Of a stretch of DNA of 64,000 nucleotides, positions 13,551 to 56,867 are shown one piece after another. Under the pieces are notes generated by a model. That model was given only the letters and a program-made list of their open reading frames with translations. It searched no databases and was not told the DNA's origin. Every line of letters begins with the position of its first letter. Position 1 is the stretch's first letter. Source of the DNA: Mayamaea pseudoterrestris. Taxonomy: Eukaryota > Bacillariophyta > Bacillariophyceae > Sellaphorales > Sellaphoraceae. The translations under genes were made by a program, and so were the position numbers. The stretch covers positions 496,001 through 560,000 of the forward strand of contig BROI01000007.1 in assembly GCA_027923505.1 (NCBI GenBank). The letters are read 5' to 3'.

Positions 13551-13835
13551 TGTTGTGTTTTCATGCAATACTAAAACGGTGTAAAGGCAACTGCTGATGA
13601 TTCGCCATGGTGAGATGAAACCATTGCATTTCTTGTGGTTCGCAAGCCGTGTCACGCTTAAAGTATTAGCGGTACTCATTTTAGCGGTACTCATCGCGTG
13701 CGTTTCGCACTTGGTTCGTTCCATCGAACCTGCTTTGCTTCCACGGGTCCAAATCTTTGGCTGCTTTTATTCCATCGCCTGTCTCTGTCATTGCAGCAGT
13801 AAAGTCAAGTTACCGTACGTTTATCAGTTTATAGA

Positions 13836-16167: not shown

Positions 16168-19100
16168 CTCCCCTCAAGTCATACCTAATAGTTCGATTCC
16201 TTGAAGAGCAGGTTCTTTAAGTGCTTGCTTGCCGTAGCCCGCGGAAGAAACTTGGTAAGTACATCCGCCGGGTTTGTCGTTCCCATGATGTGGTTGAAAT
16301 TAATAATTCCCGCCGCAATCGCTTCGCGTACACGGTGAAATGCCAGTGCATTGTGTCGCTTCGTTAGACTAGAGTGCGGTAAGTTGCTGCTTTGCGTCAC
16401 CGACTTGTTGTCTCCAAACATCCATGAAGGTCCGTCGAGCGGAACTCCCAACATGCGTAGCGTGAAGCGGAGATCCATGATCTGCTCCGTGCTCACTCTC
16501 GCTGCTACAAACTCCGAGCCGTACGTCGCCGTCTCGACCGTCGCTTGGCGTTTCGAAAACCAATCGACGACTGTTCCATTCAACATGTGTAGCATGCCCA
16601 TCGCTGCCCGTCCCGTCGTGTAATCGTGGTACAGGTTTGCATCTTCAAACGTTGACATTCGCACCGCCTTGCCGCGCGGCGTGGGCATGTTCCACGGAAG
16701 CTCTTCGCAGATCTTGCCGTACACACTGTAATCCCAATCCATCTTGTCAACTGTCGCGTATCGCTCGTCCGTTGGAATCGAAACGTTGAATCGAATCGCT
16801 CCATCTGGGTATCGTCGTAAGTATCCGCAAATATGCTTCAACCGTTCCAAGTGCCCCGCTCGTGGCGCAGCTCGGAATCTCCCCATAGTCATGACAGCAC
16901 AGTGAATGTCGAATCGACATAAACTTACTGCCCATTGCAACGCACCAATGATCGATTGATACTTCGCAATTCCGTCGTCGTCAAGTTCCTTCGTTTCGTC
17001 GAGTTCCGGATGATCGCCGTCCCGCAGTGGACTTGTCTGCGGTCGCGGTTCCTCGCCGAACATTTCTTTGTAGTTCGCTAGTAGTCTTGTGACGTACTTC
17101 TTCGCTCCGAAGCAGAGTACGCCATCGTCGTCTCGCCAAACGTCTGCGCCCAAATGATATGCCAATGGACCGACGCCCTTCAACTTGTAGTTGTAGTTCT
17201 CAATTAAAAGATCCGTTAGTTCCTTCGGATTCTTCATCGCTATCGCTAAATCGTCGACATATACACAAACGTATTCGTAGTGCGTGCCCTTATCGCGCAT
17301 CCACACGTCCGATTCTGCGATACACGGCGTGAAGCCAATGTCGCGGAGCGTGTCTGCAAAGTGTTCGTGCCAGCGTGCGCCTGACGTGCGAAGACCGTAT
17401 AGTGCCTTCACGATCGTGAGCGTGTGACCCTCGAGCTCCCCGAACTCCGGACCTGCCACGATATAAACCTTCTCTTTCGTTTTCGCTTCCAAGTATGCGT
17501 TGCCGACGTCAGCTGCCCACAGTTCCAGACCGTTGAGTTCCGCTAACATCGCTACCATTCGTAGACTTCGCAATGACACAACGCCCGAGTAAACTGAATC
17601 CTTCGGCGGCTCTGTCATATGTCCTCCTGCGACGAGTCGTGCTTTCCGTCGCAAATCGTGCTTGACATCGAATATCATGTGCACGTTTATTCGTTTCCAT
17701 GGCGCCGGCATAACCTTACCGACTCCTTGATCTGCGAACGTGTCGTAATCATTTATCTGATTTAATTCCGTTCGAATCGCATCCGTCCACAGCGTGTTGC
17801 CGTTGATCTCGTCGAGAGCTTTCGCATCTTTATAATTGCGCGGCAACCTTACGCCGAATTTGTAGCGTACGCCGTTTGCTTTCGATTTTCGTTTCGCTGC
17901 TGTCACCATCTGTCGAAACTTCTTTCGCTTCCGAGTGTAATGTTCCAGCTGCTTCCATCCTGGCTTGTCGAGTAAGCCGTGCTTGAGTCCATACTCTGCG
18001 ATTGTTATCGGATCGTCCTTCTTCATGATCGCGAGAGGCTCCCACGTCGTCGTTCCGTCAGTCCATTCGACGAGAACGTTACTTGAACTTCCTTTGTATG
18101 TCGGATCGTTCGGTTTCAAATTAAGCTCGTGTCCGATTACCTTCGTGAATACCCACTGAGTCACCGGATCGTTTCGTATATCTTCGTCCATCTGTCGTTC
18201 GATTAAATCCGACAGTTCGTTGTAACTTATTAAGTCTTTCGCTGGCTCCTCTCCCATCTGGATCAGGAAACCTTTCGTCGTTTCGAGTAGCTCGTTATCG
18301 CGTACTTCGATATATTCGCATACAGTCGCTCGCATTTTCTGACCGTTTTCGTGTTCCCTTACGAACGTGCGTCCGAATTCGCATACAGTCGCTCGCATTT
18401 TCTGACCGTTTTCGTGTTCCCTTACGAACGTGCGTCCAATGAGTTCGCTTGGAGAGAACAGAGGGCATTTATTCCCTGATTCTTGCTCAGCCCTTCTGAA
18501 GAACTTCGCTGGTACGTTGGCGTGGTTCGCCATCGGAATCGTTTCGTCGTCGTTTCCTTCGTAGTTGTCGTGACTACTTTCTGTCGCATTCGTGCTATGG
18601 TAGCGTCCTGTCGTTTCAAAATTTCGCTCGCTTGCGCGTGTAGCTTCTTCAGAAATCTCCCCTCCAGACTCAGGGAAGGAAGGCAACTCTCGTGGTAACA
18701 AGTAGCTGCGCGAGACCACGTTGGAGCGCGGAATCGCCTGAAGCGTGTCGTCCGTCAGAACGAGAAAAGTCATGTGCGGACCGCTATTCTCTGCGATGCC
18801 CACGAATCGGCCGTTGCCAGATCGTACCGCCGAGGGAAAACTCCCCTGCGCCTCAAACGTGACCGGTTCCCACCACTTGAAATGTAACAAAGGCGAAATA
18901 TCCGGCAAATTTCCGAACGCAACTTCCGTTGGAGTGCGCCATCCCAGCGATTTCGTCGCGAGGACGTTCAGAATCATGATTACGAATTTAATCAGCAAAA
19001 TCCAGCAATGCCCTGGCGAACCCGAATCTCGTTGGAGGTTCTCCATCATTGGCTTAATGTGCGACGTGTGACGTTCGCATGGATTTTGTTCTGGGTGACC

Positions 19101-21480
19101 CGGTTCTGTGGTCACTTGAGGAATATTGTACATCCGACAGAGATCCCTCACAGCCTTGCCAGTCTCCGATTTGGCATTGTCGCTGAGCAGTCCGTTAGGA
19201 GCGCCCACTTCGCGGATAAAATCCTCTAACGCATTGGACATTTCACTTTCCGACTTCATCGGGTAGCCGCGCGTGTAAAAACTTTCTCGTCCAACAAAGA
19301 GCTGCATCTTAGTAGCTCCCCCATGCCCGAGAATTCCATCATCCAAAGCTGGCGTGTCAGAGTGTATCGTGTCCGTGGCGAATAGTTCGCGCAACCGCTG
19401 AACGTTCGCGGCCGGAAATCGTGACTTCGTGAGGTGTCGAAATGGTAATCGCGGATGTTCGCTGAGATGATACCATGCTTCCGTGTGACGTAAAGTCTGT
19501 TGAACTCGCTCAGTCGGGACCCATCCGAGGTACGGCCGAAGAGCATTATAGTCCGGTTCCTTGCTGCGTAGCTTCCGCAAATTAACGCGTGAAAACTGAG
19601 CGTGTCGCACGCACCGATTGATCAGTACGTCAAGTTCGTCGCCAGTGCGTGTCGGCGTGTGACGATTGCGGTGCGTGATACCGTCATCGTCGAATCGTTC
19701 GTCGAAAGATCCATAATCGCGATCGCGTTCGCCGAAATCGCCGATGCGCGTGCGTTCGACATCGTAAACAGTCGGGTCCGCACGCCGTCCGACGTCATGA
19801 TGACAGTCGGATACTTATCCAAATCATCGAACGTGGGTTTCGTCACGTCCAAGTACACCAGGCCATCGCGAATTGCCAATGGCAAAACGTAGCCTCCAAT
19901 GTTCGTCGTAATTCGTTGCGTTCCGCCAAACATGGTCGGAATATCGTCGACACGATGTCCCATTGCGCGCAATTGATTCGGGCAATGAATCGTCGGTCCG
20001 TCTCGCTTTAAAGCATACTGGTGACACAAAAGCAGAATGGTTTCCCCACTAAGGGTCTTTGCTAGTCCAGCTGCTGTGCCAATCTTGAGAGCTGGGACAA
20101 TATGATCGTCAATACCAGTCACATCCACCTCGGCGTTCGTTTCCGAAACGACGAGCATGTCTCCTCCGCATAAGCCTCCGTTCGCGCCGCTGTCGATGAG
20201 CGCCTGTTGATCCGCTCGTAGTGTGCGCGATTGACGCGCATACGACGATGCATGTTGAAGCTGAATGTACCTCGTCCGGTGTTATCAGTCGTCAACGATC
20301 CTGTCACTTGCTGAGTTGTAGTACTCGCATTATTCGCTTGCAGAACCGATCGTGCAGCCGTTTGGACTGACATTCCACTATTGCCTGGCTGGATATTAAT
20401 CGTGCCAGGAACGCTTGCGTGATCGTTCGCTACAGATTCCGTCGCGTGACGCTCTTGATGCGCCGCGTTGACTTGCGTCTGCGTCGTAGCCGTGCCTCGT
20501 TGGTTGCGCGGTCGCCATCCGTTTTCGGGTGTCTTGGGCGCCGTCGCACGCTTGTCCTTCAACTGCTTCCGCTGATCGAACTTCATCTCCAACCAGACTT
20601 CATCCTTCACGCTCGCGTGAGGTTTCTTCATGATCGCTGCAAATCGTTCCGCCGATAAGCCGCTTGGAGTCGCGCCGCCATTGCCGCCGCCGCCTCCTTT
20701 CGTTCCACTAGACTGCGCTTGATTGATTGTGCGCTTAGTCTTCGTCGTCGATGGATGTTTCTTGTCATACTTGATGCAGCACTCTTCTAAGTGCGCGTAC
20801 AACTGCGCGAAATTGTCTTCCGAGTCGTGTTGCCCCATGTGTTTCTTGATGGCAATCATTCCGTCAAAACCTGCTAGCGAGGCGCTGAATCCAGTGTGCT
20901 CAGAGAAAGCGTCGCGTAGCATGTCGTATCGTTGTAAACCTGTCAGAGCTTCTGCGTCCATTTCGAGCAGCCAGATGACTTTCTTGTAGAACAGTGCAAG
21001 AAATTCGATCGTCGGCCTTGACCACTTCTCGGTCAGCCGCATTCCCTGCAGTTCCGTTCGCGCGCGTTCCTTCTCGATGTGAGCAGTAGCGCCTTCTTCG
21101 TATCGCGTTCGCAATCGTTGGTAGACTTCGCGTCCGTCCATCGTCTTCTTGAACTGCTGTACTGCGAGTGATGCAGACGGAGTTCGACAGTGCGTGAGAA
21201 AGATTCTGTATACAAACACATTCTTCTTTGCATACGCCTTCTGTTCTTTCGGTCCCTTTTCCTTCGGGTCATAATCGTCGTCAAAGACTTCGTGGAAGTC
21301 GTGCAATGTAGCGATGACTTTCAACTCGGAAATCCACTGTTTCCACGAGGAATCCAGCTTCATTTCTTTACAATCCTTCGCCGAGAACTTGATAGACTTC
21401 GTAAATTGGTCTGAATACATCTCGTCGTCTTCGCCGTCACCGAGGTCCAGTACGGATGTCGGTGACTGCTTCGCTGTCCC
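15921..21480 (-). mobile_element. Copia-type LTR retrotransposon (diatom CoDi-like), degraded
   Basis: A minus-strand Copia element. One terminal repeat (15921-16167) is clear; next to it lies a purine-rich tract, then the pol region (about 16.2-19.6 kb: integrase, reverse transcriptase with YVDD, RNase H in the Copia order integrase before RT), a protease-side region (about 19.6-20.2 kb) and gag (about 20.1-21.4 kb). The coding region is spread over three long frames, so it looks broken in about two places. A short in-frame tandem duplication sits inside pol. I could not find the other terminal repeat; the 5' side runs directly into an older repeat copy. Few breaks suggest a fairly young element, but with one LTR it cannot be dated by LTR divergence. 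The 5' boundary is approximate. Confidence 0.9.
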
Positions 21481-21489
21481 ACGTCCACG

Positions 21490-22135
21490 CTCGTCGGTGG
21501 CACCTTGTTGAACCTTGTGCCTCGTTTTAGCGTGGAACCTTGTACGGCATTCGCTTCTTCCGGCTCGTCCGCAATGTTGCAGCTGTGGACTGCTGAGCGC
21601 ATTGTGCTGCTTGATGCGACTAGCCAACTGCCATTGGATCGGCGTCCTTGTCTTGATGTCCACTCTTTCACATGCAATACGCCACGTCTCGTGTCGTCGT
21701 AGGTGCTTGAAGTACTCAACTCGTTCCTGCGTGACCTTGTCGCCATCGTCAGTCGTACGTTGACTCATCTGGTACGCCACAATGAGAACACAGCCATTCG
21801 AACAATGTTCTTGGTAGCAGTCACCTCAACTGGCAGTCACGTATGTCCTGCAGACCCCAGAATCTTTATAACATATATACAATGATACAATGATCCAATA
21901 GTCTTGTCACTTGTGGGAATGCAGCAATGTGCCATGAGGCCCCGTCACATTCAACAAAAGCTTGAATGTGCTAGCAGTGTAACCATGCTTTGGCTACAAA
22001 ATCATCAGCCTTGCCAGCATAAGCCTGCTGATCAACTCTTTGTATGGTAGTTTGCATAATTTGAAGCGCCAGATGTGGGAGACTATGCTGTGTCACCCTA
22101 TCGGACATTCGGTCTTGTCTGCCATGGTGATCCTG
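21490..22135. repeat. Repeat copy B, flanking the Copia element
   Basis: Diverged counterpart of copy A on the other side of the Copia element and in the same orientation. It also carries the landmarks of the 347-bp units, including a hairpin (CACATTCAA / TTGAATGTG at 21946-21970). Near its end, 27 bp identical to part of the Copia LTR replace the sequence seen in the other copies. Confidence 0.75.
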
Positions 22136-24129: not shown

Positions 24130-27100
24130 TCACAACGCGATCGGCCTCGTGGGCGTATACAAACCAATGAATGTATCGGTCGATCCAGCCGCCAGCAATG
24201 GCTTATACCTGTGAAAGGCCAGACAACTAACTGGGCCGATGCGATGTGATGCCATTTTTTCGTGGTATCGCAATACCTGCATTGTGTCGCCATCTAAAGT
24301 CAACAGCTTGATAAATTGTGCATGCGATCCGGTTGCGACCATGGGGATTTTTGAATGAACAGCAAGGGCTGTCATTGTGCTTCGCTGCACTTCCATTGTC
24401 CGGAGGCTCGACGACATGCGCAAGTCCCAGCTATGATTTTGAAAGAAAAAAATCCAGTCAATAAACTCATAAATTTCGACCCGTCGTCAGTTTAAAAGAC
24501 TTACGCTTTGATTTCTCCGTCTACTGTTCCCGATATCAACTCGTATCGATTTGCATATCCAGTGAAGGCGGTAGCCACCACCCAGCCTTTATGTTCTTTG
24601 AATAGGGTAGAACGTCGTCGTGGATTTGTACCTGACGCACTCGGACTATTCAATTCCTGAACAGGACGATGAACACGAAGATCGAAAATCCTCATTGTCC
24701 CGTCGCTGAATCCACCTACAAGAGTGTCTGGGCCGAATCCATTTGTTGAGGCGAACTGACCGGTCATGTCTGTATCCCAAGCAGTCGTCAGCGTTGTGAT
24801 GTTGGCTTCGCTGTTGGTTTCCAATTTACCAAGAAGAGTTTCCGAGTCGAGATCCCAGCAATTGATGTGAGCTGCATTGCCTCCGGCAAGTAAGCAGCCA
24901 CTCCATTGCTGCCACTCGCAGACCAGGCCGCTGCCCCGTTGACCGGCTTTCATTGGTAAAGCATGAAACGCAGAGATCATACATGGCACAGTGGGGTCCG
25001 CGCCATCTATCGCGTACAGATCGCCCCAAAATCGCACCGATCCGTCATCGCAGCCAACATAGAATAAACTTGACGATGTTTCGTTGACCCAGCCAGATGT
25101 GGTCATTCTCGTACCTTCTGGATTACCGTTCTGTTGTGACACTACCTTTGATCCGTTGTCAGTGTCCCAAACAACGACTGATCCAGTGCCTCCACATGAC
25201 ACGAGAATATTGTCAAATGGATGAAAGCGCAACATTGTAGTCATTGCTACACCATCATTTCGGAAAACTTTGGTCTCCGTTAGCTCGAGCTCCTTCCTCT
25301 TCACAGCTGCTAGCTCCTCTGCAGCTTCAAGAGCATCCTCCTCCTGCTCAAGCAGCATCTCGATGCTTTGCCGCGGGGGCTGGGGAGGTTTCGGCGCTAA
25401 ACTTGCATAATGTTGTCCGAGCTGTTCAGCCTGTCTGCGGGTGGACATTATCCTCGTCGCGTGATGAATCTTGGCGGCACCGGCTGGACTGAGAGGATCA
25501 AGCTTTATGTCGTTTTCGTCAAGCAAATATTCGAAGTTTGTGTCAAAAGTATCCTTCTTCCATGAATAAAATGTCGACTCTGGTATAGAATAGGTAAGCA
25601 CCTCGAATTCAGGTCTGACATGGTGAAGTGATGCAGTTCCTAGCGACGCTTGATGTTCCATTGAACCACCGGCTTCGTCCACTCCATCGGAGAGAACCCG
25701 TCGCAGACCGGGTTTTCTTATCTTCGCGCCTGTTGTTTTTGCTCGCTCAGAATCCCGCAGTCGCATCGGAGGTGGTGGAGTCATCATCGCTCGTGGTTCT
25801 TCGTCGATGTCGGTCAACACAGAAGGCTCTTGAACTATAGCCGAGGTATCAGCATCGCGTTCGCGTTCCGCCTGCATGCGAAACTGAAGCAAATTTTCGT
25901 GTACAAAACTAACGATCTTGCTGGCCGCCTGAGCAATGTTGGGGCAAGGATCCTCCTGCCGAATTATTCGAAGCGCCTCCCATATTTTCCGAAACCTCTC
26001 CAAGCTGTTACTTTCAAGTCCTGAAGGAATGGGGTAACTTCCATTTCTGTCAGCTTGCTTATGAGGATTCACAGGGGAATTGCTTGCAGACCGCTCTTCG
26101 GCCATTGCCACGAAAGCTTCCTGGTATTTTCTGACGACGTATCCCAGCGATATGACAGCTTCGTAGCGAACCAAAACACTCACATCTTTCGTCGCCTGCA
26201 AAATATATGCCGCGGCGTTAAGATCTAATATCATTCTCTGAGTATCGTCATAAACGGACGGCTGCAAAGGTCGTAAGTCTGTGTGGCTCTTTTGCATCTG
26301 AGGCGTCGATAAATGAGGCTGACTTATACCAACACCGTGACTTCCTCCGACCAAAAAGCCAGCTGGGCTGACGGAGCTTAGCGTCGGTTGTAAAGATTGC
26401 CCATGCATGGCATATGCAGGCTGAAGCGGCTGACCTTGAGGAGTGCGAAACTGTGCCGATTGGTGAAAAAACTGCTGAGCAGGTATAGGGTGCCGCAGTT
26501 GAGGTTGGCTATGCAGTGCATCAATATTCTGTGGACGCCACTGAAGACTCGGTACTTCCGACGAAGGTTGAAAAGCCGGTTGTAGCTGTATTCCGGGTCG
26601 AGTATGACCTTGCATGGGTCCAGGAATAGCTAAAAATGTTGCAGAGGGGGCTGCCAAGCCGGAAGTTGGCGTCTGCTGCCCATGCTTTAGATCTTGATAG
26701 GATGACGCACGACTCGTCGGTTTTGGAGGTCGAATCAAACAACCAATCGCGTAACAAGCAGCGGCGCGAACATCGGGATCTTTATCGTCGATACGATTAA
26801 ATAAGCATGTGTGTACACCACCTCTGAAACTTTCATTTTGAGCCGGCGAGTATTCTTTGGACATGTGGCCGAGAGACATGACAAGCCATAATCGGAAATG
26901 CGGGGGAAAATGCCACTCAACTATCTTATCGTGAGCTTTGTTGCCCTGATCGTACGAAGACAGTAAAGCACAGCAGGTGCCGTGCAGATTCAAGCGCATA
27001 CACTCCGCCTGTCCAGCCGAATAATCATCGCAGCAAATCGACAAAACGTAAGCTGCCATTGTACGTTCCTTTGCCGCTTCAACAATCTCAGCCCCTCCGC

Positions 27101-29115
27101 TTGTAAGTCCATACATCAAGTGCTGAGCAAAATGGTGAAACGCTCCATCTTTCAACAGATCGACACGACAGGATGGGTCAAAAGCAAGAACCGACGCCCA
27201 AATACTGACAAGAAGACTTTTGTATTCTGGAGACTGCAACAGTTTCATGACGTACGGGAAAATGCCTAAACTCAAAGCAAGATTGACAGCCCATGGACCT
27301 AAATCCAAAAATCTCCGCAGCAGCAAAAGTGCCCGAATTCGGTGGACCTGGCTGAGCAAGACCTGGAGTACAACCGGTAATTGCTCTGGCGATTCCAATT
27401 TCCCTCGCGCCAATTGCATCTTGTGAATTGCTGCAAATTCAAGCCAGATTTCAAACGCTGTCAGCTGCTCCGAGAAGAAAGGGGATGACGCCGCGTAGCT
27501 TGAGTCAGAGTCTGGTGATGAGCTTGGTTTCGCAGCTCGCATACCCGATTTTGAAGTATCGTCGGGAGTATTATCCTCGTCTCCCGGAGTTTTGACAGGT
27601 TTTACTATGACATGACTACCAAGAACTCCGTCCTTTATCAACTGAAAAAGTAGAGTCTCGCAAACTAGATCCCATGCTCTCCAAAGTGGGTGCTCAGCCA
27701 TGCCTGGCGGAAGCGGAGGATGTGAAACTGGCGTACAACCAAGACTCCGTAAAATCCGATCCGCCAAGAGAAAATTTCTGAACATGCTCGCGACTAGTAG
27801 GTCCTGGCGAAATAGTCGCTGAAATATAGGCTTGGGCAGCATGTTCCATGCGATCGAGTCTGTCACTGCCGTAAATATCCAGTTGAGCTCGCCGAGTGGC
27901 GTCTTACGATCGTTCGCTTGCCCAGGGATGCCATCGACAGCGTCTGGAATTAAAAACAAGTTAGGAAACAAAGAAATCATACAAGTGATCACATGACAAT
28001 GCCCGCGTACCAGGATCTAATCCTCCCATACTATTCGGGTGGTTACGAACAAACCACCTCAGGGCAATGGGTATCGGAGTGGTAAGGCAACTGGTAAAAA
28101 TGTCGGCAGGATAGTCTGGACCCATTGGAAGCCACTCGTTTTCGCTACATCCACATAGCACAATTGTATCATTCACCCATTGGCTTGACAATGCATCTAA
28201 CTCATCGGCCGAAATCCCATTTGCAGCATTGACGCTGGTCAAAGGGTCAGCCAGTGGCGACGAGTGGTTCGTTGGTTGCAGAGGCGCCTTGAAGAATGGA
28301 ATCAAAATACCAGCTGCGGAACAATCAAGGACAACAATCGACGGTTTCTCCATCCAGGAACGCATTTCTAATACACTTAATGGAATATACTCGGTATGAT
28401 TCTTGTCAAAAACCCAAATTTCGCCATTCGCCGTGGGCCTAGGTACACCATGTCCATTGTAATGCAGCAGAATTCGTTCATTTCTCGCCTGACGACGAAG
28501 TTGCACGCAAAGTGATCGTACATCTTCAATCGTCGGATCTAGAGCGCGCCGATGCTTGAGTGGCCGCGCAGTCCTTACTAATTGCCATTTTGCGTACTGC
28601 GATTCCAACCGCTCCCCAATAATTTCCTTGGCCTTTGAGCGAGAAACGGAGCGTGGATCAATCCAGCACTCCAAAACGGCGCAAGGATGCGGCTTGGTAA
28701 TGTCTGGTGGGTCCGTACCAATGTTTAGCGCCAAAATCAAGCCAACGCCAATTGTTTTCATGCGATCTCTGAGACGCCAGTCGGGCTCAATGGTTTCATC
28801 TTGCTTCTTCTTTGGTTGCTGCTCCTTGCCGTTGATGTTATCCTTTCTTTTATCATTTGCATTGATTTGTCGTATCTGCTGTTTCGACATTGTCCCCGTC
28901 GATTGAACGCGTGGCAGCAAGGAAAACGAGCTAACGCGCTTGGTAAAGGACGCATTTGCACCGCCTGCGGCTGCATCGGCTTCCTGCTGCTGCGTCGACT
29001 GTTTCCCATTGACTTTTCCGGAATCCGGGCACGTTAAAGCATCCACCCCTTTTGGGCGGTCCCGCAGGTATGGAGCCTGCATACGCTTGACGAAATATTC
29101 CTTTCGATTCGTCAT
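24130..29115 (-). CDS. RPTOR: Raptor, TORC1 scaffold subunit
   Basis: Three exons (29115-28011, 27943-24505, 24430-24130) with introns of 67 and 74 bp give 1614 residues; the human protein has 1335. The N-terminal caspase-like RNC domain is clear: PCAVLECWIDPRSVSR, RNERILLHYNGHGVPRPT, GEIWVFDKNHTEYIPL, IVVLDCSAAG, then NPNSMGGLDP. Helical HEAT repeats follow (MLPKPIFQRLFRQDLLVASM, DPDVRAAACYAIGCLI), then a long Pro/Gln-rich linker and seven-bladed WD40 repeats at the C-terminus (FHPFDNILVSCGGTGSVVVWD, GGFSDGTMRIFDLRVHRP). Raptor presents substrates to the TOR kinase in nutrient-dependent growth control. The extra length is mostly linker. The gene is divergent from the condensin gene with 229 bp between them. 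Confidence 0.97.
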
Positions 29116-29344
29116 CCTTTGTAGCTTTTATGAATTTGGCAATGAGGGACCAACAAGTCAGTAGTAGTGGATCGTCGATTCGATTTTCTGTGTGGGAAAT
29201 GTCTTTTCAGTCCCGCATACTCATTGAGTCTTTTCAAAACTGCTGAAGTCTCATCTATAGCTAAATATCTCGCAAAGATACCAACCATCGGGCAACGACG
29301 AACGAGACTCTGCACACAAACCAAGATGGAAAGCAATCTTTACC
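29116..29344. promoter_or_regulatory. Divergent promoter, Raptor / condensin CAP-D2
   Basis: 229 bp between two start codons pointing away from each other. It must hold both 5' leaders and both promoters, so shared regulation is possible. I see no TATA box I would stand by. Confidence 0.6.
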
Positions 29345-33931: not shown

Positions 33932-35480
33932 ATGGAGAAACCGCTTGACTGTGAATCCATGTCGCATCCTATTGTTCGCACTCGCTTGGTGGGACGCAAT
34001 CTTCCTTTCAATCAATCCAAGAATGTAATTCAGGTCATTCATAACTACGGAATGAAAATCATTCGCCTGACGATACATGATTCCTTTCATGTTTTGCTTC
34101 GACTTTCGGCGCTTCAAACGATTCTCTTGATGGTAACACTATTGACAATGAATGTGCTGTTCTTTGCCAGTCTCTACCTTGCGGTTGACCGCAACTACGA
34201 TCCCAAGGGTGTTTGCAATCTGGGAGTAAGTGGAAAGCCGCTAGAGTTTCATACTGCTTTTGCCATTTCGGTTCAAACGAGCGTCAGTGGCGGATATTGG
34301 TGAGTCCTTTCTTGGTGCCTCTATGAACGATCAATCATGGCAATAATCTAAAGATACCAACGCTCTGCAATGACAGCTTCCCGATAGGCAGCAACGCATT
34401 ATTTGAGGATTGCCCGGCCCTGCAATCCGTCTTTTACTTTCAAATTGGCTTTTCTTTACTGACTAACGGTAAGCGATGCATACGACAGTGAGCTCTGCGC
34501 TGAGCTGCTAGCTACTGTTGTTTATTTGTGCTTTGTAAATGTCGATTGGCCGGCTTTTTACGTGGACATGCGCCATTATTTTGTCCATCGAGTCAGTCTA
34601 ACTTTTGCTCCGTCGACTCGCAGCTGTTTGGATCGCTCTCATGATTGCTGCACTTGGCGACAACTCCCAACGAGCCGTACAAGTCCTGTTTTCGGAGAAA
34701 GCTATTGTTTCTGTGCACGGTAGCCAAACGAGGTTTCAAGTACGAATATTTGACGTTAATGCAAAACATCCTGTTGTCAATGCACACGTTCGTCTATACG
34801 CCATGATGAAGGACAAACCTGGCCCTCGTTCTCTGCGACTGGTGCAGCCCGATGATGAACTAGGGGGCGGCATGTTTCTTTCGCTACCTCAAGTCATTAG
34901 CCATCATATTGATTTGTACAGCATCTTGCATCCTCCTAAGGCAGACAATCCTTTACTCGAAAACAAGAATGGCTTGGATATGCGCGAAGCAGATTCCTCC
35001 ATTGGAAAGCGCGGAGAAGTCTCTTGTCCTGTCTGCAGCGAAAATTTTGGTACACATAATCAATGGGTCAGACATGTGAAGTATATGCAAATTGCCGAAA
35101 GTGTCGGCAAGACTCCTCGTCCAGGTGCTCATGGAAAGATTCGAGAATTGGAGCTTGACTTGGATCGGTACAAGCCAACCTCCAATCTTGAGGTTTTACA
35201 CTCTCACTTTGATCAAGAGATTAGCGAAGTTGTCTGTGTGGTGGAAGGCACTGATCCGTTGACGTCGGGAGCCTTTTGTGCAATGCAAAGCTACCAGTCA
35301 TCCGACATTGTTTGGGACCATGGAAGTGCCTTTCATCCCTGCATTAGCGTCGACTCTGACATTTATCGAGTTGACATTGATCGTTTCCATGATATTACAA
35401 AAAAGACATCTGGTGGCAGGCAGCACCAAGTATCAACAAGAGTACATGATTCATTCTTTGCTGTTGGCGGGACATTCTAG
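33932..35480 (+). CDS. Inward-rectifier-type potassium channel, copy 1
   Basis: Three exons (33932-34299, 34377-34468, 34624-35480), introns of 77 and 155 bp, 438 residues. Two membrane segments surround a pore loop with the pair of extracellular cysteines found in Kir channels (VCNLGVSG and FEDCPALQ). The selectivity filter reads QTSVSGGYC in place of the usual TIGYG. The TM2 position that sets rectification in Kir2.1 appears to be Asn. The large cytoplasmic domain is typical: VLFSEKAIVSVHGSQTRFQVRIFD, ISHHIDLYSILHPP, EVVCVVEGTDPLTSGAF, FHPCISVDSDIYRVDIDRFHDI. Between its strands lies an insert with CPVCSENFGTHNQWVRH, like a partial C2H2 finger. First of three tandem paralogues; its filter is the most divergent, so conduction is uncertain. 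Confidence 0.9.
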
Positions 35481-35956
35481 CTTTTCTAACAATAAAAGTT
35501 GGGCGCAGAACATCGTATACTTGGTAGATGCTCTGGTAGTTATGATAGAGGAGCAGCTAACGTTTTGCATGGACTCTAGTATGTCAGAGTTGAATCTGAG
35601 ACAAGTTCTCTCCAATCACATACCGGTAGCAGCTGTAAGAGGCACCAGCCATGCATTCCATCTAGTAAACCAACCTAAATAATGATGCTGGCAGCATTCT
35701 AGTGTCTGTCTATTGGTCGTGGACACAGCCCTCTCGTGTGGGTCCAAAAGAGTGGTTAGTAAACTGTATTGCGCTGCGACACACAACATTCGACTCCTCG
35801 CGATGATGAGAGCTCGAGTTGATGTGAGCTGTGCGTGCTTCTGCTTTGCCATATAGGAGGCTGGGGATGTAGCGCGACCTTCTTACGGACTTTAGTTGCG
35901 GACGGGCAGATAGCGAGACGCAGCGAATAGAGAAGACAGTTAATTACTCGTAGAAA
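35481..35956. other. Intergenic between Kir copies 1 and 2
   Basis: About 475 bp, no supported gene. A TACCGGTAGC motif is at 35621-35630. Confidence 0.5.
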
Positions 35957-37393
35957 ATGTCTACAAGGATCATGACGAGAACGAAAAGCAAGTCGTCGCT
36001 CCAAGATCCTCCTCGCATAGTTTTGCGGAATCTCCCCTTTAATCAGTCAAGAAATATTCTTCAGGTGGAGCACGATGAAGGTTTTCGAATGTCGCGTTTA
36101 TTGCGGCACGATCTGTTTCACGTGTTGCTTGGTCTGCCGACCGTCACGACAATGGTGTTGCTTGCATGCCTCTGGACGGCAAATTGTTTGTTCTTTGCTG
36201 CCATCATTTACGCAGTCGACCCCGACGAGGCTGGAACGGACTGCAGACTTCGATCATACGACAAACCGATTCTTTATGCGACGGCTTTTGCTCAGTCAAT
36301 TCAGACAGCGTCTGGCGTTGGATACACGTAAGTGCCATCTGGCTCACCTTCGCTGTGTATTCAATGTATCGGTATGAAGATCTCACAAGTATATATTCAA
36401 ACCTTGCTTCATTTCAGCCTTCCCGTCGCTGTTAATTCCTACTATGCGCATTGTCCCAAGCTTCAAATAGCTACTTATTTTGAAATGTCAGTCTCCATGC
36501 TGATCGTTGCCTTTATCATTTCCATTCTCATTGCCCGCATGAAGAACGCGGCTCGCCGCGCAGTGCAACTCGTCTTTGCCAAAAAAGCCGTTGTCTCCGT
36601 TGTGAATGGACAGACTCGCCTCCAAATTCGAGCCTTTGACATTAATGCCCGGCACCCCATCGTTGGTGCTCATGTGCGGCTGTATGCCGTCACCAAGGAT
36701 CGACCAGTACCTCGCCGCCTTCGGCTTCTACAGCCAAACGATGTCACGGGCGGTCATCTTTTTCTATCGCTTCCTCTAGTTGTGAGCCACCATATTGATC
36801 TATACAGCATTTTGCATTCACCGCGACCAGATAATCCTCTCTTGAGACACAGCCATGGAATGGATTTGAGACAGGCTGACTCAGCCACTTGCAATCGGGA
36901 CGACGTTGTCTGCCGCATTTGCAGCGAGACGTTTGGTACGCACGAAATATGGGTCCGACATGTGCAGTACAAAAAGATTGCCGAAAGCGTGGCCGGTGTT
37001 TCGACCAAGAGGAGTCACCTTGGCGTTGGACAAGTTGAGCTTGATTTAAACAGCTACAAGCCCACTACGAACTTAAGCATTTTGAAGACTCATTTTGAGC
37101 AAGAAATCAGTGAAATCATTTGCGTGGTGGAAGGCATTGATCCATTGACATCGGGTGCGTTTAGCGCCATGCACACTTATCGAGCGTCAGATATTGTCTG
37201 GGAAGAGCATGCTGCGTTCCACCCTTGCATCAGTGCTGATTCTGGTACCTATAAAGTTGATTTGGACCGCTTTCATGAGATTGTCAACGTGCCCTCTGCT
37301 AGTCGCCAGCATCAAGTTTCGACGCGAGTGCACGACTCATTCTTTTTCAATGAGAACCGAGAGTTGAAAGCAGTTTCCATGTTGCCTCAGTAA
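35957..37393 (+). CDS. Inward-rectifier-type potassium channel, copy 2
   Basis: Two exons (35957-36327, 36418-37393), 90-bp intron, 448 residues. The intron interrupts the codon just after the Tyr of the selectivity filter, the same place and phase as the first intron of copy 1. The filter is QTASGVGYT, so the final Gly of GYG is Thr. The Kir cysteine pair is present (DCRLRSYD and AHCPKLQ). The TM2 rectification position appears to be Val. The cytoplasmic domain is as in copy 1 (LVFAKKAVVSVVNGQTRLQI, EISEIICVVEGIDPLTSGAF, FHPCISADSGTYKVDLDRFH). The zinc-finger-like insert reads CRICSETFGTHEIWVRH. Likely a potassium channel of plasma or internal membrane regulated through the cytoplasmic domain. 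Confidence 0.9.
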
Positions 37394-37655
37394 CTAACAT
37401 GGCTCGTCTCTTGTTTCATTTAATTTTTGACCTGAAATGTTGTGTATTATGTCGGCATTCGCATTATATGAATACGATGCTCCTTAAAAGCAGGCGTTCG
37501 TTTTGTTAGGAAGTATAACCATAGCTAAAAGATACACACTGCGACACTTGTTCGGAGTGTTGATTCGCGACGATGGCGCGCCAATCGACCTCGAGGCGTT
37601 TTGGCCGTCCCTCGTCAAAACCATGGGAATCTGTCGCCACAAGCATTAAGTTTCG

Positions 37656-39068
37656 ATGATTCCAATGAGATGGAGAGCGAATGACATACAGACTGATAAG
37701 GTGGATGATCTGCCTCGTCTTGTACGGCGAAATCTTCCCTTCAATCAGTCTGACAATGCGATCCAAGTTCTTCACAACCAAGGAATCAAGATACTGCGGC
37801 TGACGTCCTACGATTATTTCCACGTTTTGCTTCGCTATTCCTTGGCACAGATTTTAATCTTGCTTATTTTTCTGTGGACAATCAACATTTTGTTTTTCGC
37901 TGGCGTTTACGTTTCCATCGATCCCCATGAAAGCGGAAGCTGTGGACTCGGATTGAATGGGCAGCCCATCACTTGGGCGACAGCGTGGGGATTTTCTCTA
38001 CAAACCGCCACAACTGTAGGTTACACATTGCCTAATTCTGTTAATGGATATTTTGAGAATTGTCCATCGCTACAAACTGCAGTCTTTTTCCAAACGACCT
38101 TTTCGCTATTGTTCAACGCCTGCCTCATCGCCATTGTCACTGGACGCATTGCCAACAGCAGTCTCCGAGCAATCCAAGTGATCTTTTCTGATAAAGCCAT
38201 CGTATCCGTCATGGCTGGCCAAGTGCGATTGCAGATTCGAGTCTTTGACGCCGACGCTCGCCATCCAGTGGTCGAAGCGCATGTTCGATTGTACGCCGTC
38301 ATGAAGGACAAGCCAGTGCCACGTCCATTGCGTCTCATTCAACCGAACGATGATCAAGGTGCCAAAATGTTACTCTCTCTGCCACAAGTGATTTGCCATC
38401 ACATTGACTTGTACAGCTTGCTGCATCCACCCAAGCCTGATAATCCTACGAACGCTGTTCGAAATGGATTGGATTTGCGCCAAGCCGATTCCTTGACATG
38501 TACTCGGGAGGAAGTTGTATGTCCAGTCTGCAGTGAAACATATGGAACGTTTGAGCGCTGGGTTCGGCACGTTCAGTTTAATCAAATTGTGGAACGTGAG
38601 GATGAAATTCCAGTCAAGGGATCTCACCTTGAAGTTAAACCAGAGGAGCTCAATTTGAACAGGTACAAGCCGAGCAGCAATTTGCATGCCATGCAAACTC
38701 ATTTTGAACAAGAAGTGAGCGAGGTTATTTGCGTTGTGGAAGGGATTGATCCATTGACTTCGGGCTCTTTTGCTGCAGTTCACAGCTACCGAAAGGAAGA
38801 CATTTTCTGGCAAAATGGCGCAGTCTTCCATCCATGTATCAGTGCCGAAGCAGACAGCTACACGGTCGACCTTGATCGGTTTCACGAAATCATAACAAAA
38901 TCTGGTGGCAGGCAGCAGCAACTTTCTATCCGCCCTCACGACATGTTCTTTGCAATTGAACGGCGTCCCAACCTTAGCAGCCTGCTTCGCCAGGGCCACG
39001 CAATGACGAGAAACGTTCCTTCAATCCGTCGCCCTTTTGCACCGAACATGATGAGCCCCAGGCGGTAG
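37656..39068 (+). CDS. Inward-rectifier-type potassium channel, copy 3
   Basis: Single exon, 470 residues; no introns, unlike the two copies before it. The filter is QTATTVGYT (38010-38027 for TTVGYT), the closest of the three to the Kir TTIGYG. The Kir cysteine pair is present (SCGLGLNG, ENCPSLQ). TM2 FNACLIAIVTGRIANSSLRA has Asn at the position of Kir2.1 Asp172. Cytoplasmic domain: VIFSDKAIVSVMAGQVRLQI, ICHHIDLYSLLHPPKPDNP, EVSEVICVVEGIDPLTSGSF, YTVDLDRFHEII. Insert CPVCSETYGTFERWVRH lacks the His in the loop seen in copies 1 and 2. A basic tail (SIRRPFAPNMMSPRR) extends beyond the other copies. Confidence 0.92.
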   Translation: MIPMRWRANDIQTDKVDDLPRLVRRNLPFNQSDNAIQVLHNQGIKILRLTSYDYFHVLLRYSLAQILILLIFLWTINILFFAGVYVSIDPHESGSCGLGLNGQPITWATAWGFSLQTATTVGYTLPNSVNGYFENCPSLQTAVFFQTTFSLLFNACLIAIVTGRIANSSLRAIQVIFSDKAIVSVMAGQVRLQIRVFDADARHPVVEAHVRLYAVMKDKPVPRPLRLIQPNDDQGAKMLLSLPQVICHHIDLYSLLHPPKPDNPTNAVRNGLDLRQADSLTCTREEVVCPVCSETYGTFERWVRHVQFNQIVEREDEIPVKGSHLEVKPEELNLNRYKPSSNLHAMQTHFEQEVSEVICVVEGIDPLTSGSFAAVHSYRKEDIFWQNGAVFHPCISAEADSYTVDLDRFHEIITKSGGRQQQLSIRPHDMFFAIERRPNLSSLLRQGHAMTRNVPSIRRPFAPNMMSPRR

Positions 39069-39874
39069 TGGGTCACAAATTTAGATGATAGAATTAAGAT
39101 AAACTAACTCGTTGCAACTGTGTGGGTTGTGGCCTCTATGGCATTGACTTACTGTTAATGAGTCATGCACGGCATCCTATTCAGCTATTGTATCCTATAC
39201 TATCTATATGATGATCTTCCAATTGAGCTTGTGGAATAGAGTCTCTCGTTAACTGTAAAGTAGCTATCTCAATGACACTGAATTGCGTGCTACGGTAGCT
39301 GTCTCGACGACCAATGCCGAAAGGTCCATCCGTCACCCGTCGAAGAAACGAGTCACGGTGGTCCGGGTTCTTTTTGCGCGCGCGGCGGCTATGGGTCAGC
39401 CATGTTGTGAGCGCGCTGCTCGCGGAGGACACAATTCGGCGCTCTCGCAACTTGATCCAACTCACTTTGTTTGGATCAATTGGAATTTTGGAAAACGTAT
39501 TCATACGACTCCTTCAATAGATCGACAAGGCGTGGTATGTGAATTGAGTATAATGAGTGAAACATCGTGGAAGGAGTGGAGGAGTTAATCGAGAACGAGA
39601 GGATTTTGCTGAACGCAGGGCCTCGTAGGAATTGTACGGGTGCCACGCTCGCAGTCCATCATGCATGTTTTGGAATCCCAACAGTCAAGAATGCTTGGAT
39701 ATGTTTTAGTCCTTGCGCTACTGATAGTTTTGCTGATATTGTAATCTACATACGTAGACTGTTTCTTGACACTGAAATCGTACTTTGTGATTACAAGTTC
39801 CACTCACGAAATAGTTTGGGATTTCATTGCCTCACATTTTGCTCTCACTCTTTTTTCACAACAGAACATTAGAC
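39069..39874. other. Intergenic region
   Basis: About 800 bp. The only frame that drew attention is a 68-codon ATG frame at 39314-39520 with a basic start and an amphipathic second half; no family is recognisable and I do not call it a gene. The last 100 bp are probably the promoter and leader of the next gene. Confidence 0.45.
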
Positions 39875-42800
39875 ATGTCTGGCTTTGCTGCTAGCTTATC
39901 CGGGTATGGCGAGGACTCCGAGCTTCAGCGCCAGTTTGATGAGTATCAGCGCGGAAACCCAGGCATTAGCATGGGGATGCCTCCAGGGCCTCCTCTTCCA
40001 GACTACTACCATCAGCAGCAGCACCATCATCTTTCTCGCGTTCCTTCGGGCGCAAGCGGAAGCTCTCCACCTACGCATTCTACTCCCTACGTGCCGCAGA
40101 ATTATGGTCCTCCCATGGGCCATACATCTTCGCCAACCATGTCTTCAAGTCCCCTTATGATGGCGCAAGGAATGCCGCCGTACGCTACACATCACCAACC
40201 TCCTACCATGCTCGCTTACGCTAACATGCAGCCAAATTATTCACCTTCACACATGCATTATCAAGTTGCAGCTCCGCCTGGCGTGGTGGTTAGTAATTAT
40301 TCTTATCCGCCACCTCCAATGCCGCCTGGTGGCTCACCGATTACAGAGGAGGATTTGATTGATAGGCAAAACATTGATTCGCCGGAAGGAATTGCTGCCC
40401 TGTATTCGCAGCCCGAACCATTGACTCATCCGCGCGCTCCCAAAGCTACAACAACCATGGAGCAGATTCAAATTATGCAGGAAGCCTTCAAGCGCGAGCA
40501 AGATTCATCGCGTCGCCGGCACCAGTCAGCCTATGCCGAAGCGGCAGCCCGTCGGGCAGTGCGCATGGGAAACAAACCAGAGTATGGCGGAGGTGGTAAT
40601 TCAATGGGAAGTTTACAGTCATCGGCATCCGCCTCGCCCACGTCATCGGCGGGGAGTTTGCAAAGCTCTGGCGCAGCAGGGCAGTATGGGTTTGGCGCAG
40701 CAACACTAAGTAGTCAGCATCCACCTCAAGCTGCGACCACGACTACCAACAGTGTCAATGACCCCAAGGCGCGCCTCCCAACTATTGTTACCAAGCGCAG
40801 AGACGCAGCCGTTTTGGATCAGGATGAGCATGGCCGAATGATTGTTAGATACACGGACAGTGACGCAGTTTTCTACATTGGCAGCGCCCCACTCGGCGTG
40901 GAAGATGACAAGTATTGGTTGTCCGAGCTTCAAGTCTACTTGCGATCCAACTTTGCGGAAGCATTTTCGGCCAGCGAGGACGACATTGCTGTATTGATGC
41001 ATGGAAGAAACAAGCCAATTTCACTTGGACAGATTGGAATTCGTTGTCGATGGTGCAAGCACGACAGTCCGGCCGAACGCGGTCAGCAGGCGACGAGTTA
41101 TCCGTCACTTATTAGTGGAATTTACAATTCGGTACAGCAAATGCTTCGCTTGCATCTGGATAGTTGTTTATCCATGCCTCACGATGTTCGCGACAAGATT
41201 GAGTATCTCAAGCTATCCTGCAGCAGCCGAGGCGGTCGCAAGCAGTACTGGATTGACTCGGCCAGGCGCATTGGGTTGACTGATACTCCAACTGGCATTC
41301 ATTTTGTTCGAGACCCAGATGAACCGCTGCCTCCTCTTTCAGGGCCAAGTGTGGCGGCGAGGGATGCGACGGCTCTGCGCAAGAAGCGTCCTCCGGTGGC
41401 ATCGTATACAACAAACAATGTGCCACGGCTCAAGACGGCCCCAAGCAAGGCGAGACCTTTTATCCAGGATGAAAACTATGAAGACGAATATTCTGGTCGT
41501 ATAATGGATATTAACATGCCGTCTCAGCCGCCCAAGGATGCAGCTCCACTTGTTTTCCCTGAGGACAAACCGCTGATCTCCGACTATTTGTATCTGACTA
41601 TGGAGCAAATGGCGCTTTGCAATTTAATGGAAGCCGATCGCGTAGGCTGCTACAAGACTCGGAAGGTTGGTTTTCCAGGAATTGCGTGTCGTCATTGTGT
41701 TGGACAGGCTGGTTGTGGACGCTATTTTCCAGCTTCGGAAGCGTCTTTGTCGCAGACGACCACGTCGCAGACTATTTTAAATCATGTACGGAACTGTCGA
41801 CGCTGCCCTGCCCATATTCGAGACGAGTTAGAGATTATGAAGCGTGAACGCACCGGTCCAGATGGAAAGCGGCATGAAAAGCCGAAGCATGGAGGCCGCA
41901 AGGTCTTCTTCCATCGCCTGTGGTGTCGCATTCAAGGTTTGGACATTGATGACGAGGAGGAGGGCGAAGGAAGCTGTGAGGATGAGCCTGAACCCAGAAG
42001 CAGCATGAAAAAGGGACGACGCAAGAATGACGAGGACTACAGCTTCGATGAACTGTCGTGTAATGTGGAAACATCACATAGCGACTCGATTGATTATGGC
42101 TTATCGTCGGAAAAGGCGAAAGGCAAGCGCAGCAGCCCACGCAGCACGAGGAATTCGAGCAGCGCAAGTAAGGCAAGCAGCACAGATACTGAATCATGGG
42201 TACACGGATGTGTTCGCTTAACAAAAGCTGACGACAGTCATTGGTTGTCAGAGATGGAATGTTTTGCTCGCACTGAACTTGTTGAAGTATTCAGCTACAC
42301 GAGAGACGACTCTCTTCAAGGTTATTCTGGTCGAAAGCTACCAAGCGAGGGCCAGGTCGGGGTCAGATGCGTTTATTGCAAGGATCTCGATCCGAACCAG
42401 CGAATGAACGGCTGCGTCATTTTTCCAGACTCGCTTGAATCACTCCATTCAAAAGTGGCGGACATGATACGTTTGCATTTCCCGAGCTGCGGTTCTCTTC
42501 CTGACAATGTTCGTCAGACTTTTAAGTCGCTTCGTGGATTCGACGCGAAGGTATCGACGGAAGATTCCCATCATTACTGGATTGACGCTGCTGTTGATAT
42601 TGGGCTTTCGGGCGAGTCTACTGGCGGCACTGGTACATGGGGCATTTCCTTCCGCAGGAATCCACTTGAACCTAGTCCCGCCGATGAACTTGATATGGAA
42701 CCGACCAATGGTCGATGGGCAGGGTCGGCGAGGAACTTTCTAGTTATGAACGACGATCGTGGTACTTGCACCGATCAAGTCATCTTGCTAATGCGGCAGG

Positions 42801-43554
42801 TCCAGCCTTGTCGGTTCGGAGGCGCGGACAAGCGCGGCTCAGCGTCACGCGGGCGTGCTCGTGTCATGTAAGTTATTCTACTCGTCTCAGCCTGTAATTG
42901 TGTTTTGCATTTCCTCACTCTTGTCCACTCATTTATATCATCAAAGTGGCTTCCCTGGAATCTGTTGCAAGCATTGCAATGGACACAGCAGTCAAGGTAA
43001 GTTCCAACTCCAATTGAGTTCTAGAAATAAAAGTTGCTGCCACAGTTTCTCACTTTCGTTTTACAGGTCGTTACTTTCCACCTTCGGCCAAGAATTTAAC
43101 TGATAGCACGGTGAATTCGATGTTGACGCATGTAATGTCCTGCATCCACTGCCCCTTCCCAGTTCGAGCTTCGCTGGCATATCTGGGACATCGGGCTATT
43201 CAGCAAAAAGCTGATTTGGGTGGTGGCTGGAAGAAGAATTTCTTCCAACGAGTATGGGATCGTTTGCATGTCAGCATGGAGTGGACCGCGGCCGAGGGAA
43301 ATTTCGGATTGCCTGCGAGTCACAATAAAGTCAGCGAGTATGGCGAAGATGACGGACCGCTCGACCCCCATGATGATGGCGGCGAAGCGCAGGGTGAATC
43401 AGGCGACCAAATGAATGCGTTAATTAAGGCTGCCGCCATCTGGTTGACGGAGCAAGACGGTAGCAAACCCCGCAGTAAGCGAATCAACCCTGGCTCACCG
43501 GATTCTGCGGATGATAATGAAGGCTCTGGTAATAAGAGGCGCAGAGCTGTTTGA
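39875..43554 (+). CDS. Large nuclear-type protein with duplicated Cys/His modules (X-Y-X-Y)
   Basis: Three exons (39875-42867, 42947-42996, 43067-43554), introns of 79 and 70 bp, 1176 residues. A Pro/Gln/Ser-rich N-terminus of about 320 residues precedes four modules. Module X (about 40.86-41.30 kb and 42.20-42.66 kb): YWLSELQVYLR, GQIGIRCRWCKH, MLRLHLDSC, YWIDSARRIGL; the second copy keeps HWLSEMECFAR, GQVGVRCVYCKD, MIRLHFPSC, YWIDAAVDIGL. Module Y (about 41.57-41.86 and 42.76-43.16 kb): YLTMEQMALC, GFPGIACRHC, GRYFP, HVRNCRRCP; the second copy keeps GFPGICCKHC, GRYFPPS, HVMSCIHCP. Conserved Cys and His suggest each module binds zinc. I recall many diatom proteins with such modules but know no function. 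The exon 2-3 splice sites fall inside the second module Y and restore it exactly. Confidence 0.9.
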
Positions 43555-44994: not shown

Positions 44995-46672
44995 ATGTTT
45001 TCACGCGTCGGCATTTTGTTTCTTTTACTCACTTCGACATGCACAAACTTTGGAATAGCATTCACTCAAGCACGACTAATAAACAGACTATCACTGGTTC
45101 ATCGAGGGGGTAGTACAGAGACAATATCGCAAGAAACGCGGACGAATCGAGAGGAAACGGAATACTACGATGCGGGTCAAGTAACTCTACAAGATCCAGC
45201 GCAAGTAAGTTAATAATAATTGGATTTATGATTGAAAGTGGAGACTTGAATTCAATGTATACTAAATGTCATTTTACTTTCGACTCCAGAGTCGAGGACC
45301 TCTTCGTATACTTTTTCTCAGTTCGGACACGGGCGGTGGCCATCGAGCATCAGCAGAATCGCTGGCTAAACAATTTCAAACTCATTACCCTGGTTCGACT
45401 TACAATTTGCTCGATGTATGGAGCGAGGACGGCGTTTGGCCTTACAAAACACTCGTCGAGTCCTACAAACACTTGTCGGCACATCCTCGTCAATGGCAGT
45501 TTTTATATCATCTGTCCAACACACTGCCATGGGAGATACTGACGGATCTACACTCGCGCATTACTTGTGAACGAAGGATCCGAAAACGAATTGCAACCTA
45601 CAATCCTGATGTCATTGTTTCCGTGCATCCAGCCATGCAATACACTCCTCTTGTGGCAGCGCGAAAATTAAGCAAGGCCACTGGGAAAAAGATTCCATTC
45701 TTCACCGTCGTGACCGATTTGGGTGCTGCACACTGCACGTGGTTTCAAAAGAAACCGGACAAAATGTACGTGGCGTCGGAGCGGATTCGAAAACTAGCCA
45801 AGCGACGTGGACGGACCCCTGACGAAAGAATTGTCATGACTGGGTTGCCGATTCGACCAGAGTTCGCAATACAGGCTGAAAAAATGGGAGATCGCACCTG
45901 TGTGGAGGGCCAAGCATATCGTAAAAAGATCAAAGAGATGCTGAATTTGGATCCAGATCGTCCCGTCGTCCTTCTCATGGGAGGGGGTGAAGGGGTTGGC
46001 AACTTGGACAAGCTTGTCGATGAATTGTACTATGATTTTGTAAAGCAAGGCGTCGATGCTACTGTTTGCGTCATTTGTGGACGTAATATTAAACTCGAGC
46101 AGGGTCTAACCGAGAGAAACTGGGACGCTGTATTGAAAGGCGATCATAAGAAGCTAAAGAAGCGACACTTTCTTAAACGCTTGTTTCGGCGGAACCGCAG
46201 CAAGCGCATGGAGGAAGCAATGGATCGTAGTCTTGATCAGCAGGACGAACCCCGTCCAAAGGGAAAAGTCGCAGTTGTTGGTTTGGGCTTTGTTTCAAAT
46301 ATCGCCGACTACATGGTCGCTGCTGATATACTTGTGTCGAAGGCTGGACCCGGGACGATCGCCGAGGCAGCGGCGGTGGGACTTCCGGTAATGCTCACGA
46401 GCTTTCTACCCGGCCAGGAAGCTGGCAACGTCGACTTTGTGATCGAGCACCGCTTTGGTGATTTTATCTCAGCAAAGGAGCCGGAAGAAATGGCCCAGGA
46501 AGTGACTAGTTGGCTGCAAGACCAAGAGCTCATGGTGAACATGAGCAAGGCAGCTCAGCGAACTGGACAACCTACGGCCGCCGCAGATATTGTTCACGAC
46601 ATTGGAGCTATTACTCATACATGGATGGCTTTGAATGGTGCGGTGGAGTTGGACATGTCAAAGGTAAACTAA
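44995..46672 (+). CDS. MGD: Monogalactosyldiacylglycerol synthase, plastid-targeted
   Basis: Exon 1 (44995-45204) and exon 2 (45290-46672), 85-bp intron, 530 residues. It transfers galactose from UDP-galactose to diacylglycerol to make the main thylakoid lipid. Exon 1 is a leader: signal core VGILFLLLTST, then GIAFTQARLINRL, where A-F fits the diatom plastid cleavage motif. The enzyme starts in exon 2 with RILFLSSDTGGGHRASAESL, the MGDG signature, followed by YKHLSAHPRQWQFLYHL, NPDVIVSVHPAMQYTPL, TVVTDLGAAHCTWF, LMGGGEGVG and the nucleotide-sugar site VSKAGPGTIAEAAAVGLPVM with LPGQEAGNVDFV. A basic insert of about 50 residues (KKLKKRHFLKRLFRRNRSKR) sits before the last block; I take it as a lineage-specific loop. 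Confidence 0.96.
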
Positions 46673-56610: not shown

Positions 56611-56867
56611 GGTCGTCGACGAGGAATTTGTGACGAGATGGATGGAGCCGCCCGAAGAATATAGAGTCGCACCGGTTCAGCTGTAGTGCCGGTCCGACTC
56701 ACGAGTTGTTTTGGCGGCATGTTATATCATACGTAGTACTCGAGTACAGCAGAGCCGATAAGTAGCATCTCATGTTATTGCAAACGAAGGTTAATGTTTT
56801 TAAAGATGTATAGTAATACATACTATCGGTGCAGGTGCAGGATCATATCATAGGCAGCTACAATTTA

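Follow-up and report, generated by a model that had tools for sequence, protein, structure and literature searches.

The defining feature of potassium channels is a GYG-type selectivity filter, and naturally occurring Kir channels that lack one directly test which parts of the filter selectivity needs. In the cited literature, each paper being available to us in part, mutation of the second filter glycine is described as eliminating both K+ selectivity and function (PMC3283738). A Glu-Arg pair behind the Kir filter is described as stabilising it (PMC2766643, PMC6920955), and Kir3.1/3.4 channels in which this pair is disrupted have a wider pore and reduced selectivity (PMC2766643). Filters of the ‘GYX’ type are found in kinetoplastids, Trichomonas and some prokaryotes; the homologues in Leishmania, Trypanosoma and Trichomonas are thought to be duplicates and have been suggested to be non-selective or non-functional, while the Kir-related parasite proteins described there carry GYGS, not GYX (PMC3283738). 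TcCat of Trypanosoma cruzi has been measured, and is weakly inward-rectifying with low selectivity for K+ over Na+ (PMC3369953).

Among algae, a comparison of diatom genomes lists families annotated as KCNJ2/4/6/9, by KEGG labels only (PMC13149256), and Kir-annotated diatom genes are therefore not new; the terms GYG and tandem are absent from the main text of that paper in the form available. A survey of K+ channels in the stramenopile Ectocarpus and in Chlorella, with Kirs among its queries, combined BLAST with a screen for the motifs GYG, GFG and GLG, and all of the host channels kept are reported to have a consensus filter (PMC3369850, available in part). Genes with GYX filters would be missed by such a motif screen. 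In the literature that we searched, mostly non-subscription papers, none of the titles and abstract openings listed dealt with the filters of diatom Kirs.

Here we describe three complete predicted genes for Kir-homologous two-transmembrane (2-TM) proteins, which lie head to tail at positions 33932-39068 on the forward strand of a 64-kb stretch of DNA, the whole of which we call the window.

Gene models and Kir homology

Copy 1 (33932-35480, +) is modelled with three exons (33932-34299, 34377-34468 and 34624-35480) and encodes 438 amino acids. Its first intron (34300-34376; GT-AG, 77 bases, phase 2, stops in all three frames) interrupts the codon directly after the filter tyrosine, and its second (34469-34623; GT-AG, 155 bases) falls within the second membrane helix, where the alignment with the other copies is recovered once the intron is removed. 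Copy 2 (35957-37393, +; exons 35957-36327 and 36418-37393; 448 amino acids) has a single GT-AG intron of 90 bases (36328-36417) that shares position and phase with the first intron of copy 1; read without splicing, it runs immediately into a stop codon. Copy 3 (37656-39068, +) is an intronless gene of one exon that encodes 470 amino acids.

The copies align over nearly their full length; identity to copy 3 is 55% for copy 1 and 54% for copy 2. Codons differ between copies at 25-27% of second positions and 61-64% of third positions, and dS is saturated. This excess of third-position differences, together with the saturated synonymous change, indicates old duplicates that have been maintained as proteins. 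Reading frames are open in all three, and on these grounds we rejected a pseudogene reading, in agreement with the preliminary description of this DNA, which had held that the genes were not decayed.

Directly downstream of copy 3 lies a 1018-aa open frame (39815-42871, +) with no Pfam match at 1e-5. Elsewhere in the window, a single open frame at 45266-46672 (+) matches MGDG synthase (3.9e-26), which suggests a photosynthetic host, probably an alga and plausibly a diatom. The 1209-aa open frame at 16185-19814 (-) carries an RVT_2 reverse transcriptase domain (4.1e-26) and probably belongs to an element of the Copia type, whose gag part may be the neighbouring 568-aa open frame (20119-21825, -). 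Two Diphthamide_syn matches about 41 kb apart, at 12183-13766 (-; 1.7e-99) and 54925-56676 (-; 7.7e-63), are probably a Dph1 and Dph2 pair. Two overlapping open frames at 24501-29127 (-), of which the first matches HEAT and WD40, have what we take to be a resemblance to the TOR partner Raptor.

Homology of the three copies to animal Kirs is clear from sequence comparison, and the Kir-like character proposed in the preliminary description is borne out. The Pfam domain IRK_C, which is the Kir cytoplasmic domain, scored above its cut-off in all three (47.3-49.5 against 22.5 bits; E=2.3e-12, 1.2e-12 and 5.2e-13 for copies 1, 2 and 3), and the transmembrane domain IRK scored below its cut-off in all three (14.2-19.4 against 22.7 bits). 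When a profile of the three copies was searched against the PDB, GIRK2 was matched at E=1.7e-21 and KirBac3.1 at 6.6e-5, with the match to Kirs covering both helices and the filter, and phmmer with copy 3 retrieved Kir6.1 at 2.9e-13; the copies thus score nearer to eukaryotic Kirs. In each copy, strong hydrophobic stretches lie on either side of the pore, with one extra marginal stretch in the cytoplasmic part of copies 2 and 3, and the extracellular cysteine pair that flanks the pore is present in all three.

An AlphaFold prediction of copy 3 plus exon pieces of the other copies had a pLDDT of 42.3. Among the best 50 of 258 Foldseek matches to this model, all were Kir, KirBac, KATP or potassium-channel structures except for two titled ‘transmembrane protein’ (9ma5; chains named Kir); with a TM of about 0.2, this match is weak support for homology. 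An NCBIfam search of the copies gave two weak and uninformative matches. There was no confirmed relative in the viral-contig and genome-contig collections scanned, and nothing was found at E 0.1 when copy 3 was compared with plasmids by tblastn. Since none of these collections is a eukaryote genome set, the absence of relatives from them says little about distribution.

The selectivity filter and its surroundings

The filters read S-G-G-Y-C in copy 1, G-V-G-Y-T in copy 2 and T-V-G-Y-T in copy 3 (ACT GTA GGT TAC ACA; 38013-38027, +), and Gly-Tyr are the sole residues common to all three. In place of the second glycine there is a cysteine in copy 1 and a threonine in copies 2 and 3, as expected from the preliminary description, in which the final glycine of GYG was missing from every copy; neither GYG nor GFG occurs in any of them (0/3). 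The filter threonine has also gone from copies 1 (Ser) and 2 (Gly), and copy 1 additionally has glycine instead of the filter valine.

In the HMMER alignment, the filter of copy 3 is matched to the Kir6.1 sequence TIGFG and to TIGYG, the filter of both GIRK2 and Kir2.2. The alignment of the other two copies to copy 3 has no gaps at the filter, so the filter does not lie elsewhere. An alternative alignment opens a four-residue gap right after the tyrosine and sets Gly, Ala and Ser (copies 1, 2 and 3) opposite the second glycine of Kirs. These residues are five positions past the tyrosine, and there is consequently no contiguous GYG either way.

Could the unusual filters be an artefact, arising from pseudogenes, from an error in the assembly or from incorrect splicing in the models? 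In favour of this, the predicted models of copies 1 and 2 each place an intron precisely at the filter codon. We enumerated junctions between GT or GC donors up to 10 bases after the tyrosine codon and AG acceptors at 34320-34429 (copy 1) and 36345-36469 (copy 2). None of the 22 resulting combinations (2 x 5 = 10 in copy 1 and 3 x 4 = 12 in copy 2) places a glycine after the tyrosine; the following residue is Cys, Trp or a stop in copy 1 and always Thr in copy 2. Splicing is thus not the explanation, because copy 3 also lacks the glycine and is intronless at this place, and we rejected splice rescue for the enumerated GT/GC-AG junctions. Against an artefact there are also the agreement among three diverged copies, their open frames and the visible constraint, and we consider this account very improbable.

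The changes extend beyond the filter itself. The pore-helix glutamate (position E138 of Kir2.1) is glutamine in all three copies. The loop from the filter tyrosine to the second cysteine comprises 12 residues, four more than the 8 in Kir2.1, and contains no Arg or Lys in any copy, whereas the Kir2.1 loop has an arginine. The filter-stabilising Glu-Arg pair (E138-R148 of Kir2.1) is therefore missing from all three. At the position of Kir2.1 Asp172, which has a role in strong rectification (PMC3283738, available in part), copies 1, 2 and 3 have Asn, Val and Asn, which argues against strong rectification.

These features bear on whether the pores might still be potassium-selective. If so, the threonine or cysteine and the longer loop would hold the last carbonyl, and the four-residue extension would offset the loss of the glycine and of the ion pair. 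K+ selectivity does tolerate some filter variation (PMC3283738, available in part), and the gapped alignment above offers a Gly, Ala or Ser opposite the second glycine. However, the published effect of mutating that glycine runs counter to this account, as does the absence of the supporting glutamate and loop basic residues from all three copies, and we regard retained selectivity as improbable. The preliminary description had tied such filter changes to lost selectivity, which agrees with published work on other channels in the parts available to us (PMC3283738, PMC2766643).

Conservation among the copies also differs from that among animal Kirs. Of the 16 residues that make up the pore helix and filter segment, 9, 7 and 10 are identical in the three pairs of copies (44-62%), compared with 30, 32 and 32 of 47 (64-68%) where the cytoplasmic domain begins, so that the pore segment is the less conserved in all three pairs. 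The reverse is seen in six of six pairs from four animal Kirs (pore 12-16 of 16, or 75-100%; cytoplasmic start 28-39 of 45, or 62-87%), in a comparison that covers 16 pore residues and four channels, of which two are close to each other. Among the animal Kirs, 12-32 of 39 residues are identical in the outer loop plus second helix; the second helix is thus weakly conserved in both sets, and a difference in kind is confined to the pore helix and filter. The pore-helix Gln-Thr, the filter Gly-Tyr and both cysteines are invariant in the three copies, so some pore role may persist. The reduced pore conservation would also be compatible with a non-conducting sensor.

The cytoplasmic insert and possible functions

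Relative to Kir2.1 or GIRK2, all three copies have about 86 extra residues between the halves of the cytoplasmic domain. The insert-bearing pieces, each of 101 amino acids and inside the Kir cytoplasmic domain, lie at 34917-35219 (copy 1), 36803-37105 (copy 2) and 38412-38714 (copy 3), all on the forward strand. Classical C2H2 zinc fingers have the spacing C-x2-C-x12-H-x3-5-H. The motif C-x2-C-x12-H-x18-H is invariant in the three inserts, and thus the first three ligands have the usual spacing in every copy and the next invariant histidine follows 19 residues on. Pfam C2H2 models gave weak matches to all three inserts, each under its cut-off. A structural model of the insert piece of copy 3 (pLDDT 50.8) has two single-residue strand or bridge positions followed by a helix. 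With an incomplete, zinc-finger-like motif, zinc binding by the insert is a lead only. The low pLDDT of this model and of the one described above puts both the filter geometry and a zinc site beyond them.

The earlier claim that the rest of the Kir fold is conserved can now be narrowed: it stands for the extracellular cysteine pair and the cytoplasmic domain, but the ion pair has gone, the outer loop is longer, IRK falls below cut-off throughout and a large insert has been added.

A serious rival to any conducting role is that the proteins are pseudo-channels, which would act as membrane-anchored sensors or as dominant-negative partners of a GYG Kir encoded elsewhere, the cytoplasmic domain and insert being the functional parts. 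The conservation of the cytoplasmic domain above that of the pore in every pair of copies is consistent with this, as are the insert common to all three and the loss of two or more filter residues from copies 1 and 2. On the other side stand the invariant Gly-Tyr, Gln-Thr and cysteine pair, and the outcome of a tblastn search in which the three proteins were run against the window and which, below E=0.5, found only the three copies and no neighbouring GYG or GFG homologue. We consider the pseudo-channel account possible, though on the whole unlikely.

We best read the locus, on the evidence of its predicted proteins, as a subfamily that has the Kir fold but a remodelled filter, and whose members may be weakly selective cation channels or partly non-conducting subunits. 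The two membrane helices, cysteine pair and cytoplasmic domain would be retained and the filter and outer mouth remodelled, with assembly most likely into Kir-type tetramers. Loss of the second glycine would act on the outer end of the filter. Copy 3, which keeps the threonine, valine and first glycine and lacks the second glycine and the ion pair, would probably keep the inner ion sites only, which we place by assumption from the general structure of K+ channels. As the copy with most filter elements, it is the likeliest conductor, and would pass cations with weak or no K+ selectivity. Copies 2 and 1, without the filter threonine, would probably be partners that conduct less or not at all. 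The preliminary description likewise put forward altered selectivity or mixed tetramers, with copy 1 as a putative non-conducting partner. The cytoplasmic domain, including the added insert and its zinc-finger-like motif, would presumably control gating.

Old tandem duplicates that form Kir-fold tetramers with a remodelled filter, with copy 3 weakly selective and copies 1 and 2 as lesser partners, are our best explanation overall, which we hold tentatively and at a little short of an even chance. A more far-reaching version appears rather unlikely to us. In this version, the copies would belong to a subfamily with the Kir fold that occurs in photosynthetic protists and has not been described before; its filter, ion pair and outer loop would have changed together to give a pore that is non-selective or passes sodium, with gating through a zinc-binding insert in the cytoplasmic domain. 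If the proteins conduct, algae would have a further type of cation channel for electrical signalling and for the balance of ions; if they do not, the Kir fold would have gained another use, as a sensor or as a silent partner.

Comparison with known channels

In the literature searched, mostly non-subscription papers, we found no Kir-type trio without any GYG member. The ‘GYX’ homologues resemble the three copies in that the second filter glycine is replaced, and differ from them in their filters (GYSD/E or TIGYRD) and, for those of Leishmania, in being KCa2/3-like, whereas the copies described here are Kir-like (PMC3283738, available in part). The ‘GYX’ genes of Leishmania and T. cruzi also lie near a GYG or GFG homologue (PMC3283738), in contrast to the copies in our 64-kb window.

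TcCat is likewise a relative of K+ channels without the signature (PMC3369953). It differs in that its pore reads TFGADG and in that good conservation is confined to a tetramerisation domain of the voltage-gated type; a Kir cytoplasmic domain goes unmentioned in the part of that paper available to us (PMC3369953).

The eukaryotic Kirs (GIRK2, Kir2.1 and Kir6.1) share with the copies the two helices and P-loop, the cysteine pair, IRK_C, and the first glycine and aromatic residue of the filter. The copies depart from them in lacking the second glycine, the pore-helix glutamate and a basic residue in the loop, and in having a loop that is four residues longer and a cytoplasmic domain enlarged by the insert of about 86 residues.
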